From: Bacilli bacterium
Lineage (GTDB): Bacteria; Bacillota_I; Bacilli_A; RF39; UBA660
Direction of reading: 5' to 3'
Assembly (NCBI GenBank): GCA_022793555.1
Contig: JAAWDB010000121.1
Location: 1-18,811, forward strand
DNA length: 18,811 bases
Numbering within the stretch: position 1 is the first letter of the stretch; every line of letters begins with the position of its first letter. A program made the translations under genes and the position numbers. Shown in pieces: positions 2,502 to 8,421 of the stretch. The notes below the pieces were generated by a model. That model was given only the letters and a program-made list of their open reading frames with translations, was not told the origin of the DNA and did no database searches.

Positions 2502-2523
2502 GTTGACAAACGCATTTGTTAAC
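2502..2523 (+). promoter_or_regulatory. Operator-like inverted repeat over the -35 of the kinase-like pair
   Basis: GTTGACAAA-CGCA-TTTGTTAAC has 9-base arms with a single mismatch and a 4-base centre. It contains the whole -35 hexamer, so a bound dimeric regulator would block RNA polymerase. The regulator is unknown. Confidence 0.5.
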
Positions 2524-2531
2524 ACTAAAAT
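2503..2531 (+). promoter_or_regulatory. Strong sigma-A-type promoter for the tandem kinase-like genes
   Basis: A perfect TTGACA at 2503-2508 is followed by a 17-base spacer and TAAAAT at 2526-2531. The start codon is 32 bases after the -10, with AAGGGAGG as a strong ribosome binding site at 2547-2554. Confidence 0.8.
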
Positions 2532-2562: not shown

Positions 2563-3441
2563 ATGAGTAAAAATTTGGATTCAAAATTAGCAAATTCAAC
2601 ACTAATCAATAAAGGAGAACAATGGAAAACGTATGAAACTGAAAATTCTTATATAAAGGTAAGAAAATCAGGTATTTATAACTATGGTCCATTATTAGAA
2701 GAAATAAAAGATAATTATAGCGAAATTCCTCAGTTATGTGAAATTATGGGAATTGATTATCAAAACAATCGCTTAAAAGCTTACGAAATCAAGAAAAGAA
2801 AAGGTCTACCAATTCAAAATGTTATTTGGAGCAAAGAAAATTCATTAAATGAATTTGTTAGGATTGCTAACGAATTAAAACAAATTCTTGCTATGGCAAA
2901 AAAGAAAAACATTGTATTTAAAGATATTATGACTTATGGAAGTGTATTATATGATGATGAATCAAAGCAAACAAGTATTATTGGTTTAGATAGGATGCAA
3001 TCTGCTAATCATTCAGATGAGCACTTAAGCATGAATATTATAGGATCAAACCTATTAAGATACATAATAGAAAATCCAAAATACATAGAATGTGAAGAAC
3101 CACAATTTAGATTGACCAGTAATTTTAATACATTAGCATTTTATGAAATTTTTCTTTCTTCTGTTTTCAACACATCTTTAACTGATCCAAAATTATCTCA
3201 AGAATTAATGATTATTGAAATTATTAAACGTCTTTCACCAAATGAAGCTCAAAAAATGGTAGAGGATGTATTAAAAGAAAGATTAAATTTACTTGGTTTT
3301 GATAAAAAGACAAATCTATATGGAAGAATGATGGATTTAGCTAATCCAAATCAAAACAATTCCATCGACATTGCTGATTTTAATGAATTAAATCAAAATT
3401 ATATCGTTGACCAACAACAAAGAAAATTAGTTAGAAAATAA
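2563..3441 (+). CDS. Kinase-like protein, probable pseudokinase (paralogue 1 of a tandem pair)
   Basis: This encodes 292 residues, with no named family recognised. It aligns along its whole length with the next gene: WKTY...YIKVR...YNYGPLLEE near the N terminus, then a catalytic-loop-like segment, then a helical tail ending in LYGRMMDL. The segment FKDIMTYGSVLY (119-130) followed by IIGLDRM (139-145) occupies the place of a kinase catalytic loop and metal-binding motif. Where paralogue 2 has HGN and DLDG, this copy has YGS (125-127) and GLDR (141-144), so catalytic residues appear lost. A second Asp (D121) remains. No signal peptide or membrane segment is visible, so it is probably cytosolic. 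It has its own promoter with an operator-like repeat. The kinase fold is an inference from motif spacing. Alternatives are a binding or scaffold protein partnering paralogue 2, or an unrelated fold. Confidence 0.8.
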   Translation: MSKNLDSKLANSTLINKGEQWKTYETENSYIKVRKSGIYNYGPLLEEIKDNYSEIPQLCEIMGIDYQNNRLKAYEIKKRKGLPIQNVIWSKENSLNEFVRIANELKQILAMAKKKNIVFKDIMTYGSVLYDDESKQTSIIGLDRMQSANHSDEHLSMNIIGSNLLRYIIENPKYIECEEPQFRLTSNFNTLAFYEIFLSSVFNTSLTDPKLSQELMIIEIIKRLSPNEAQKMVEDVLKERLNLLGFDKKTNLYGRMMDLANPNQNNSIDIADFNELNQNYIVDQQQRKLVRK

Positions 3442-3448
3442 TGATAAG

Positions 3449-3476
3449 AGCGTTCAAGCGAACGCTTTTTAGCGTT
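3449..3476 (+). terminator. Terminator hairpin with an overlapping alternative hairpin between the kinase-like genes
   Basis: AGCGTTC (3449-3455) pairs perfectly with GAACGCT (3460-3466) around the loop AAGC and is followed by TTTT, forming a compact terminator. The same right arm, AACGCT at 3461-3466, can instead pair with AGCGTT at 3471-3476 across TTTT, which would destroy the first hairpin. The arrangement could tune read-through into the second gene. Confidence 0.7.
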
Positions 3477-3495
3477 ATAAGAAAAGGAGAAACTC

Positions 3496-4383
3496 ATGTT
3501 AAATGAATTTATAAATTTAAAAAATAAAAACAAATTTCTAATTCAAAACGGACATACATGGGCAACTTATTATTATAAAGGCGCTTATATCAAATATCGC
3601 CATACAAAAAAAGAAGGAAATTATAATTACACACCTTTATTAGAAATTTTAATGCAAGACAATTTTTTAAACGATTTTTTTTGCAAAATCTTAAGCATTT
3701 ATGAAGATCATAACCATGATTTAGTTAATGCATATCTAATAACTGCAGAAAAGGGGATACCTATTGAAAACGCTCTGCAAAACAGTAAAAATAAATTAGA
3801 AGATTTTCTAATAATAGCAAAGCAATTTAATGAAATACTAAACTATACTCAAAAAAGAAGTATGGTTTTAAAAGATCTTATAACACATGGAAATATGCTA
3901 TATAATCCTAAAAATCAAAAAATCAAAGTCATCGATCTTGATGGAATTCAAGTCCATCAATTAAGCGACCATTTAGTCAGCTATATAATATTAGATTCAG
4001 ATTGGGAATACTGCATTTTTCAATCGCCAAAATATAGCATGAAAGATTTATGGTCAACCGAATTAAATATTTTTAATTTTTATGAATTATTCTTTAACAT
4101 AGTTTTCCAAAAATCTTTATTACAAATAAAAAACAGCTTGCAAGCTCACGTTTTTGCAAGATGTCAATTTAATGATCCAGAAAAAAAAGAATACGCTCGG
4201 CAAAAATTAGAAAATAATTTAATTTACTTTTTGGACAATTTAAACTTAAAGCGAACAGATGACTTATACTCTAAAATCGTTGATTTAGTTCGTTTTTATC
4301 CCAATAACTTTTCTTATGAAGATTTTGAATATCTCGCCAACCATTATCGATATGATGAAAGAAAAAAAAGACTAATTCGATAA
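3496..4383 (+). CDS. Kinase-like protein with retained HGN and DLDG motifs (paralogue 2)
   Basis: This encodes 295 residues and is a clear paralogue of the preceding gene: TWATY...AYIKYR...YNYTPLLE at the N terminus, matching middle blocks, and the tail DDLYSKIVDL. The central segment VLKDLITHGNMLY (K126, D127, H131, N133) followed by KVIDLDGIQ (D147, D149, G150) resembles the catalytic-loop Asp/Asn and the DFG-like Asp of protein-kinase or aminoglycoside-phosphotransferase-like enzymes. The lysine in YIKYR is a candidate ATP-binding Lys. No membrane segment is seen. AAGGAG at 3485-3489 supports the ATG. It may be transcribed with paralogue 1 through a leaky hairpin. Substrate and pathway are unknown. 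I am sure of the gene and the paralogy, and only moderately sure of the kinase-like reading. Confidence 0.82.
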   Translation: MLNEFINLKNKNKFLIQNGHTWATYYYKGAYIKYRHTKKEGNYNYTPLLEILMQDNFLNDFFCKILSIYEDHNHDLVNAYLITAEKGIPIENALQNSKNKLEDFLIIAKQFNEILNYTQKRSMVLKDLITHGNMLYNPKNQKIKVIDLDGIQVHQLSDHLVSYIILDSDWEYCIFQSPKYSMKDLWSTELNIFNFYELFFNIVFQKSLLQIKNSLQAHVFARCQFNDPEKKEYARQKLENNLIYFLDNLNLKRTDDLYSKIVDLVRFYPNNFSYEDFEYLANHYRYDERKKRLIR

Positions 4384-4427: not shown

Positions 4428-4436
4428 TGATATAAT
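4428..4436 (+). promoter_or_regulatory. Extended -10 promoter for mutS
   Basis: TGA-TATAAT (TG at 4428-4429, TATAAT at 4431-4436) is an extended -10. The -35 position (CTTACG at 4408-4413) matches only 3/6, as expected for an extended -10 promoter. It lies 31 bases before the ATG. Confidence 0.7.
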
Positions 4437-7479: not shown

Positions 7480-8421
7480 ATGGAAAGAAAAAAAGGATAT
7501 TTAGATTTAAGCAAAGAATTAATAAAACATTCAAAAAAGAAACAAAAAGATTTAGTTACTACAACCAGATGCAGTACTGATGCTTTTTGGATAAAAAATT
7601 TAAATGGGAAAAATTATCTTTTTAAAGTGATTGAAGAGAATAGCCAAAAATATCGTGCACTTATTATTGAAGAAATGGCAAAACTCGCAAATATTCCCGT
7701 ACCACATACCGATTTAGCCACACTTGGATATTTACGAGGAGAATTAATTGAAGATTACCGAAAAGAAAACTTTAACTATATTCCAGGATCAAATATTTTA
7801 TATGAATTTTTCCTAGCAATGAAAGATACAGAATACATACAATCAATCGTTCCAAAATATTTAATGAAAGACAAATTGAATGAAGAAGAATTAACAGAAC
7901 TATTAAAACGCTTAAATAATTTAGAAACGATTTGGTATGCTTTAAGATTTTATTATCGAAAATATACCAATAAAGACGAAATTGTCCATAATATTACCAG
8001 TGATTTGGCCAACCGATTTGCCTTTGATTTTTTAACTATGCAAAGAGATCGTCACGCTTCTAACTGGGAAGTAGAAGAAAATAATACTACAGCATCTTTG
8101 GCTCCACATTTTGATTCCAATCGTTCTTTTTATTACCCATCATTTAATTTAGAATTCCATATCGATGATCATTACAAAAGTATTCATTTATACGAAGAAT
8201 TAGAATACTATTTAGCATATTCTGATAATTTATTTTGTGATTACTTTTTCCATCTTTATGAATTATTCACTCCAAACAACATAGAAGAAATCATTAATCA
8301 AGTTGAAAAAAATATTAACACCACAATTCCCCAAAATATAAAAATAGAAATTTTAGATTCTTATCAAAAACATTATGAAAAATTAAACGAAATAATCAAA
8401 AGGAGAAAGCATAAGAAATGA
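7480..8421 (+). CDS. HipA-like Ser/Thr kinase-domain protein
   Basis: This encodes 313 residues. The motif FLTMQRDRHASNW followed by LAPHFDSNRSF (D190, H192, N195, D212) closely matches the HipA C-terminal catalytic pattern DRHxxN...APxFD, where the Asp and Asn act in phosphotransfer and the last Asp binds metal. Upstream, NYLFKV contains K49, a candidate ATP-binding Lys, followed by IIEEMAKLANIPVPHTDLATL, which resembles the HipA-type N-lobe. There is no membrane segment, and the tail is lysine-rich (IIKRRKHKK). It sits two bases after nusB and overlaps xseA by four bases (ATGA), so it is translated as part of this operon. No hipB-like HTH partner is adjacent, arguing against a classic hipBA toxin module. 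The substrate is unknown. Kinase-like family: fairly sure. Role: open. Confidence 0.85.
   Translation: MERKKGYLDLSKELIKHSKKKQKDLVTTTRCSTDAFWIKNLNGKNYLFKVIEENSQKYRALIIEEMAKLANIPVPHTDLATLGYLRGELIEDYRKENFNYIPGSNILYEFFLAMKDTEYIQSIVPKYLMKDKLNEEELTELLKRLNNLETIWYALRFYYRKYTNKDEIVHNITSDLANRFAFDFLTMQRDRHASNWEVEENNTTASLAPHFDSNRSFYYPSFNLEFHIDDHYKSIHLYEELEYYLAYSDNLFCDYFFHLYELFTPNNIEEIINQVEKNINTTIPQNIKIEILDSYQKHYEKLNEIIKRRKHKK

Follow-up and report, generated by a model that had tools for sequence, protein, structure and literature searches.

The DNA analysed here, a stretch of 18,811 nucleotides from a Bacilli bacterium (assembly GCA_022793555.1, contig JAAWDB010000121.1, our contig C23) that is called the window below, belongs to a genome bin of 1.03 Mb in 161 contigs, which is 70% complete. 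Its genes follow each other in the order recD2, a gene for a 61-amino-acid protein, P0001, P0002, mutS, nusB, a HipA-like gene, xseA, xseB, proS and spoIVB, with mnmA farther downstream. The subject of this study is the pair P0001 and P0002, two kinase-like genes on the + strand that are separated by 54 bases and followed by mutS (TIGR01070, 1012.6 bits against a cut-off of 641.7). The pair and its key residues, which were placed by alignment (K32 also from its position in the sequence), are:

2563..3441, + strand: P0001, open reading frame of 292 amino acids, a pseudokinase-like protein by its residues and predicted kinase fold, with the metal-ligand residues lost
2656..2658, + strand: K32 of P0001, the beta-3 lysine that contacts adenosine triphosphate (ATP) in kinases, kept
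2923..2925, + strand: D121 of P0001, catalytic-loop aspartate, kept
2941..2943, + strand: S127 of P0001, replacing the metal-binding asparagine
2983..2994, + strand: GLDR (141-144) of P0001, replacing DxDG, with G141 at the place of the metal-binding aspartate
3496..4383, + strand: P0002, open reading frame of 295 amino acids, a protein of predicted kinase fold with the K, D, N and D residues kept by alignment
3592..3594, + strand: K33 of P0002, beta-3 ATP lysine
3874..3876, + strand: D127 of P0002, catalytic-loop aspartate
3892..3894, + strand: N133 of P0002, metal-binding asparagine, six residues past D127 and not five
3934..3945, + strand: DLDG (147-150) of P0002, the equivalent of DFG

The two proteins align along nearly their whole length (residues 11-291 of P0001 with 12-295 of P0002, 92 of 290 positions or 32% identical), and with an alignment E-value of 5e-41 the duplication that the initial annotation of this locus had proposed is far above chance. 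Structure prediction, set beforehand as the test of a kinase-like reading, yields a bilobal kinase fold for both. P0002 possesses the four kinase residues K33, D127, N133 and D147, and P0001 shows K, D, S and G at the same places (K32, D121, S127, G141), which means that the metal-binding loop asparagine and the DFG-type aspartate are present in P0002 and replaced in P0001. Because both predicted folds are those of kinases, the second copy is intact and the first has lost two residues, the description of the genes as a kinase-like and a pseudokinase-like member is right at the residue level. By its sequence P0001 falls under the definition of a pseudokinase, i.e. a kinase fold in which at least one catalytic motif residue is lost; since both metal-coordinating residues are gone while the ATP lysine and the catalytic aspartate are kept, it may be either a pseudokinase or a cation-independent nucleotide binder.

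Taken alone, neither P0001 nor P0002 matches Pfam or NCBIfam at E up to 1, and this includes PF00069 (Pkinase, gathering score 31.7 bits) as well as the HipA_C and HipA N-domain families. Kinases are reached by sequence only with the wider profiles A2 and A7; profile A5 is linked to A7 with a probability of 96.3%. PF00069 matches four of 30 A2 members (best E 0.0051), and its gathering score is passed by the relatives L062 (35.5 bits) and L166:2385-3236 (33.5 bits). The match list from the viral library consists of viral kinases and bears on the fold alone.

Relatives of the pair occur commonly within one taxonomic family, whose bacteria are uncultured. The narrow profile A1, built from four sequences, was matched in 27 of the 291 genomes from the window's own family, and one of these 27 matches is false. 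The wider A2 has members in at least 140 of 386 genomes, a count that includes matches to frames of 455-615 amino acids, apparently ordinary kinases; the class-level search gave 41 of 395 genomes, outside the own family mostly with frames of at least 330 amino acids, which are probably ordinary kinases too and blur the family boundary there. The comparison drew on 90 neighbourhoods of family matches and on the mutS regions of six genus mates, and it covered 107 proteins of at least 170 amino acids from 88 loci. Omitted were L064 (by eye a beta-lactamase-like false hit), the L099 copies of L037, pieces shorter than 170 amino acids, and L166_2385. Four of the 107 are shorter than 230 amino acids, hence partial or broken, and four pairs are at least 90% identical, so the counts given here are not counts of independent proteins.

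Among the 107, the lysine is kept in 96, the catalytic aspartate in 96, the loop asparagine in 97 and the DFG-type aspartate in 96; D, N and D are all intact in 95, and 12 have lost at least one of them. The omitted L166_2385 likewise has K, D, N and D intact, and its inclusion would raise the intact proteins to 96 of 108 and make L166, with two genes on opposite strands, the 13th locus with several members. The motifs read by the initial annotation are exact (HGN 131-133 and DLDG 147-150 in P0002, YGS 125-127 and GLDR 141-144 in P0001), and only part of HGN proved to be a catalytic motif: the asparagine is conserved, the histidine is found in two of the 107 and the glycine is variable, and the true catalytic aspartate, D127 in P0002 and its equivalent D121 in P0001, lies outside HGN. 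Free variation of the HGN and DLDG residues in homologues, named beforehand as evidence against a kinase, is seen for H and G, and not for the N or the first D of DLDG. In kinases the usual step from the catalytic aspartate to the loop asparagine is five residues. It is six in 49 of the 107 relatives, the window pair included, five in 57 and different in one, and the alignment with kinases in the PDB has a gap of one residue here, the catalytic loop of the pair being longer by that residue. R144 of P0001, the fourth place of GLDR, is the sole arginine at its column among the 107. The likely alpha-C glutamate of P0002, E50, is invariant in the four A1 sequences, yet it is given no weight because only 23 of the 107 have glutamate at that alignment column.

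A further shared trait is a basic C-terminus. A net charge of at least +3 over the last eight residues occurs in 82% of the 49 six-spaced members, compared with 3% of other eight-residue windows in the same half of the family, and in 46% of the 57 five-spaced members, compared with 5%. The tails of P0001 and P0002 both carry +4 (3415-3438 and 4357-4380 of the window), and such a tail may point to a shared docking or localisation role.

More than one family member is present in 12 of the 88 loci, with up to six in a row. These loci are the window pair, a pair in each of five genomes of genus g3, intact pairs in G303, G179, G657 and G704, and arrays. Two arrays from one genus, of six members (G216, L178:3388-7907) and of five (G084, L192:2552-6425), have D, N and D in every member. 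The 12 degenerate proteins comprise P0001, five copies A and five copies B of the g3 pair, and the lone gene L155. At the K/D/N/D places copy A reads H/N/S/G, and copy B reads D, E or S, then S or A, then H or N, then N. The doubly degenerate g3 pairs lie at L044, L045, L052, L136 and L142, in five species of the one genus, and among their ten proteins nine have a C-terminal charge of +3 or +4 and one of +2.

The residue losses in P0001 and in g3 have separate origins. A quick tree built from the 49 six-spaced proteins makes P0001 and P0002 sisters, with a support that is not strong (88 in the Shimodaira-Hasegawa-like approximate likelihood ratio test, SH-aLRT) and a path of 2.58 changes per column between them; their neighbours are two gmk-linked relatives (97), and the nine g3 rows stand elsewhere. 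A topology that forces P0001 together with these nine rows is rejected by the approximately unbiased test (p-AU 0.004; quick tree, with long branches included and motif columns kept). The degenerate g3 proteins are maintained by purifying selection, given their low ratios of nonsynonymous to synonymous substitution (dN/dS): 0.085-0.286 for copy A and 0.215-0.430 for copy B, in ten comparisons each, with a high dS in many comparisons. For five intact orthologue pairs elsewhere four ratios are 0.17-0.25 and one is 0.46, two of the five resting on few changes because the pairs are nearly identical. A neighbouring gene, by eye thymidylate-kinase-like, gave 0.06-0.085 in three comparisons, and the degenerate g3 proteins evolve faster than this neighbour.

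The initial annotation had also raised a conserved position upstream of mutS, which is not borne out. Among six genus mates, G001-G004 have 116-243 bases without a kinase gene between the matched part of the 61-amino-acid gene and the mutS start, G005 has a different gene upstream of mutS, and G006 has a single broken kinase-like gene, whose frame is interrupted near the catalytic loop, possibly by a sequencing or assembly error. Since the contents of this slot vary among genus mates, the pair looks like an accessory unit in the recD2-mutS intergenic slot, with mutS as a bystander; no support was found for a functional connection with mutS, with recD2 or with any neighbour that recurs, the slot being empty in G001-G004. 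Another broken kinase-like gene, in two overlapping frames, occurs in the same genome as the window (G000:C127, L152:3667-4360). Three signals accompany the pair:

2503..2531, + strand: sigma-70-type promoter-like site TTGACA-17-TAAAAT, about 30 bases before P0001, with 11 of 12 consensus matches
3449..3466, + strand: 7-bp hairpin in the sequence between P0001 and P0002, followed by TTTTAGCG on the + strand
4431..4436, + strand: TATAAT before mutS, read by eye in all seven genomes (that of the window and the six genus mates), whether or not kinase genes are there

The promoter scan reported 10 sites against a shuffle mean of 16.5 and is weak evidence by itself. A near-palindrome, TTGACAAA-cgca-TTTGTTAA (2503..2522), overlaps the promoter-like site of P0001 and, judged by eye, is possibly an operator. 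A scan flagged the hairpin on the - strand only. The HipA-like gene (7480..8421, +; PF07804 at E 1.6e-6, under the cut-off, and PADLOC PDC-M03A at 1.2e-12) occupies another variable slot, bounded by nusB and xseA; G002 has a copy there that is 64% identical, and in the other five genus mates nusB adjoins xseA.

No recurrent partner gene across many genera was found in the neighbourhoods of the compared loci. Apart from clusters dominated by g3, the most widespread neighbour clusters, named by eye, are ATP-binding cassette (ABC)-type ATPases (six loci), a P-type ATPase (five loci) and a third set (five loci), as far as can be told all common kinds of gene. The P-type cation ATPase (by eye) adjoins the family member or lies one gene off at L057, L134, L148, L149 and L063, five loci in three genera, which could be either a functional hint or chance encounters with a common gene.

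We hypothesise that P0001 and P0002 are partners. The two, paralogues with a predicted protein-kinase fold, make up a small accessory unit, in which P0002 is most likely the catalytic member and may phosphorylate a protein. P0001 would most likely be its regulatory or scaffolding partner, as STRAD is for LKB1 and Fam20A for Fam20C: it may bind a nucleotide, the two proteins would bind each other, and the binding would regulate activity. A catalytic P0002 with P0001 as regulatory pseudokinase partner is the reading towards which we tentatively lean, and a number of observations weigh against it. On the side of the fold, the predicted model of P0002 has a mean predicted local distance difference test score (pLDDT) of 58.2, P0002 alone matched no PDB sequence at E up to 10, and within the same limit no solved kinase was reached by the narrow profile A1. 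The GxG glycine loop, which a pattern search detected in six of the 107 relatives, is in neither P0001 nor P0002, and for this reason an activity of P0002 is not assured. On the side of the tandem arrangement, the window is the only mixed set of intact and degenerate genes among the 12, six being all intact and the five of g3 all degenerate, and L155, in which only the catalytic D is changed (to N), is a lone gene. Tandem loci contain 11 of the 12 degenerate proteins and 31 of all 107, an association that we do not call significant because it reflects two or three separate events only. Purifying selection on P0001 may be assumed by analogy with g3, there being no orthologue among the compared genomes. 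The intergenic hairpin, a weak candidate for a terminator or attenuator, also counts against the reading.

A rival explanation lies close to the preferred one and is somewhat less probable: P0001 and P0002 could be ordinary diverged tandem paralogues acting separately, with P0001 a non-catalytic scaffold, a decoy or a decaying gene. Tandem copies are common in the family (12 of 88 loci, up to six genes) and six of the 12 sets are all intact, the split between P0001 and P0002 is old by its path in the tree, five of the six genus mates either lack the unit or have just a single broken gene of it, and the hairpin separates the two genes. However, P0001 has a full open frame and has retained the lysine, the catalytic aspartate and the basic tail, and purifying selection acts on the degenerate g3 copies, which occur as pairs in five species.

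A catalytic kinase with a pseudokinase partner whose metal- or ATP-site residues are changed is known from eukaryotes in LKB1-STRAD and Fam20C-Fam20A (here and below the literature is cited for the parts of the sources available). STRAD-alpha has GLR for DFG and a histidine for the loop asparagine (PMC4718504), and the arginine of its GLR takes the place of the cation (PMC4718504, PMC2639636); Fam20A is a paralogue of Fam20C and activates it (PMC7948968). The window pair differs from both systems in being bacterial, a tandem of paralogues side by side, without close sequence relation to them, and known here from its genes. P0001 resembles CASK, which keeps the beta-3 lysine and the catalytic aspartate (of HRD) and has lost the DFG aspartate, and might thus be a live cation-independent kinase or nucleotide sensor. 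This is improbable: the glycine loop is intact in CASK, as defined in the available part of PMC2639636, and not in P0001, where the region reads KGEQWKT; the arginine of STRAD takes the third place of DFG, and R144 falls one residue later; and many active kinases stand above CASK in the same ranked list, with Z tied.

Among bacterial systems, the Hanks-type kinases (YabT, PknB, StkP) differ from P0001 and P0002, which lack a Pfam match, have a catalytic loop one residue longer and are single-domain proteins of 292-295 amino acids. Some five-spaced relatives have Bud32 and the kinase domains of LanKC/LanL among their best matches in NCBIfam (L158 to Bud32, E 4.1e-10; L161 to LanKC, E 1.4e-06; all far under the curated cut-offs), and P0001 and P0002 have no such match. 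The bacterial pseudokinase families ActPs1-3, GLW, CP1, DYD and DLHK, as well as EssB/YukC (PMC12599244), likewise combine a kinase fold with lost catalytic residues; compared by description only, they include no tandem active/inactive pair in the part of that source available. In HipBST/HipA, as far as the available description goes, a kinase works with a partner encoded next to it, and P0001 and P0002 show no HipA homology. Among the matches listed in open-access PubMed Central (PMC), no title concerns this kinase family or a bacterial tandem kinase-pseudokinase pair.

The least probable alternative gives the pair a role in defence or one like that of a toxin-antitoxin system, with P0002 as a growth-arresting or antiviral kinase that P0001 would restrain. 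It would suit a unit that is patchily present in an intergenic slot and diverges fast; some relatives also match defence kinases such as PD-T4-6 and MAD6, if weakly, and the window's other variable slot holds the HipA-like gene. But those matches, at E 1.5e-06 to 0.05, span the core that is generic to kinases, a partner gene recurring across many genera is missing from the compared neighbourhoods, and no relatives were found either of P0002 in phage and plasmid records or of P0002, L057 and A4 in viral contigs. For the same absence from viral contigs and from phage and plasmid records, an origin from a phage or plasmid is unsupported.

A bolder extension of the preferred reading, in which P0001 is the regulatory partner of P0002, is unlikely as a whole. 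It would hold that a lineage of uncultured, Erysipelotrichaceae-like bacteria expanded a set of small kinases that stand alone, of which half have the elongated loop, and that repeated tandem duplication and decay produced its own kinase-pseudokinase modules, a bacterial counterpart of LKB1-STRAD and Fam20C-Fam20A; P0001 would then be a nucleotide-sensing, metal-independent regulatory subunit of P0002, and the g3 module would by now be a fully non-catalytic pair.

The initial annotation was mostly right at the level of fold and residues, and the setting next to mutS is incidental. The kinase family, together with its tandem and degenerate forms, is what is new here. Bacterial pseudokinases are largely unexplored by experiment, according to the available part of PMC12599244, and the family would give a name to, and make testable, small proteins that are mostly blank in the usual libraries. 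Intact, half-degenerate and fully degenerate pairs in related genera form a natural series in which to ask how a kinase becomes a regulator, and in this group of small kinases 'dead' versions can be kept in evolution.
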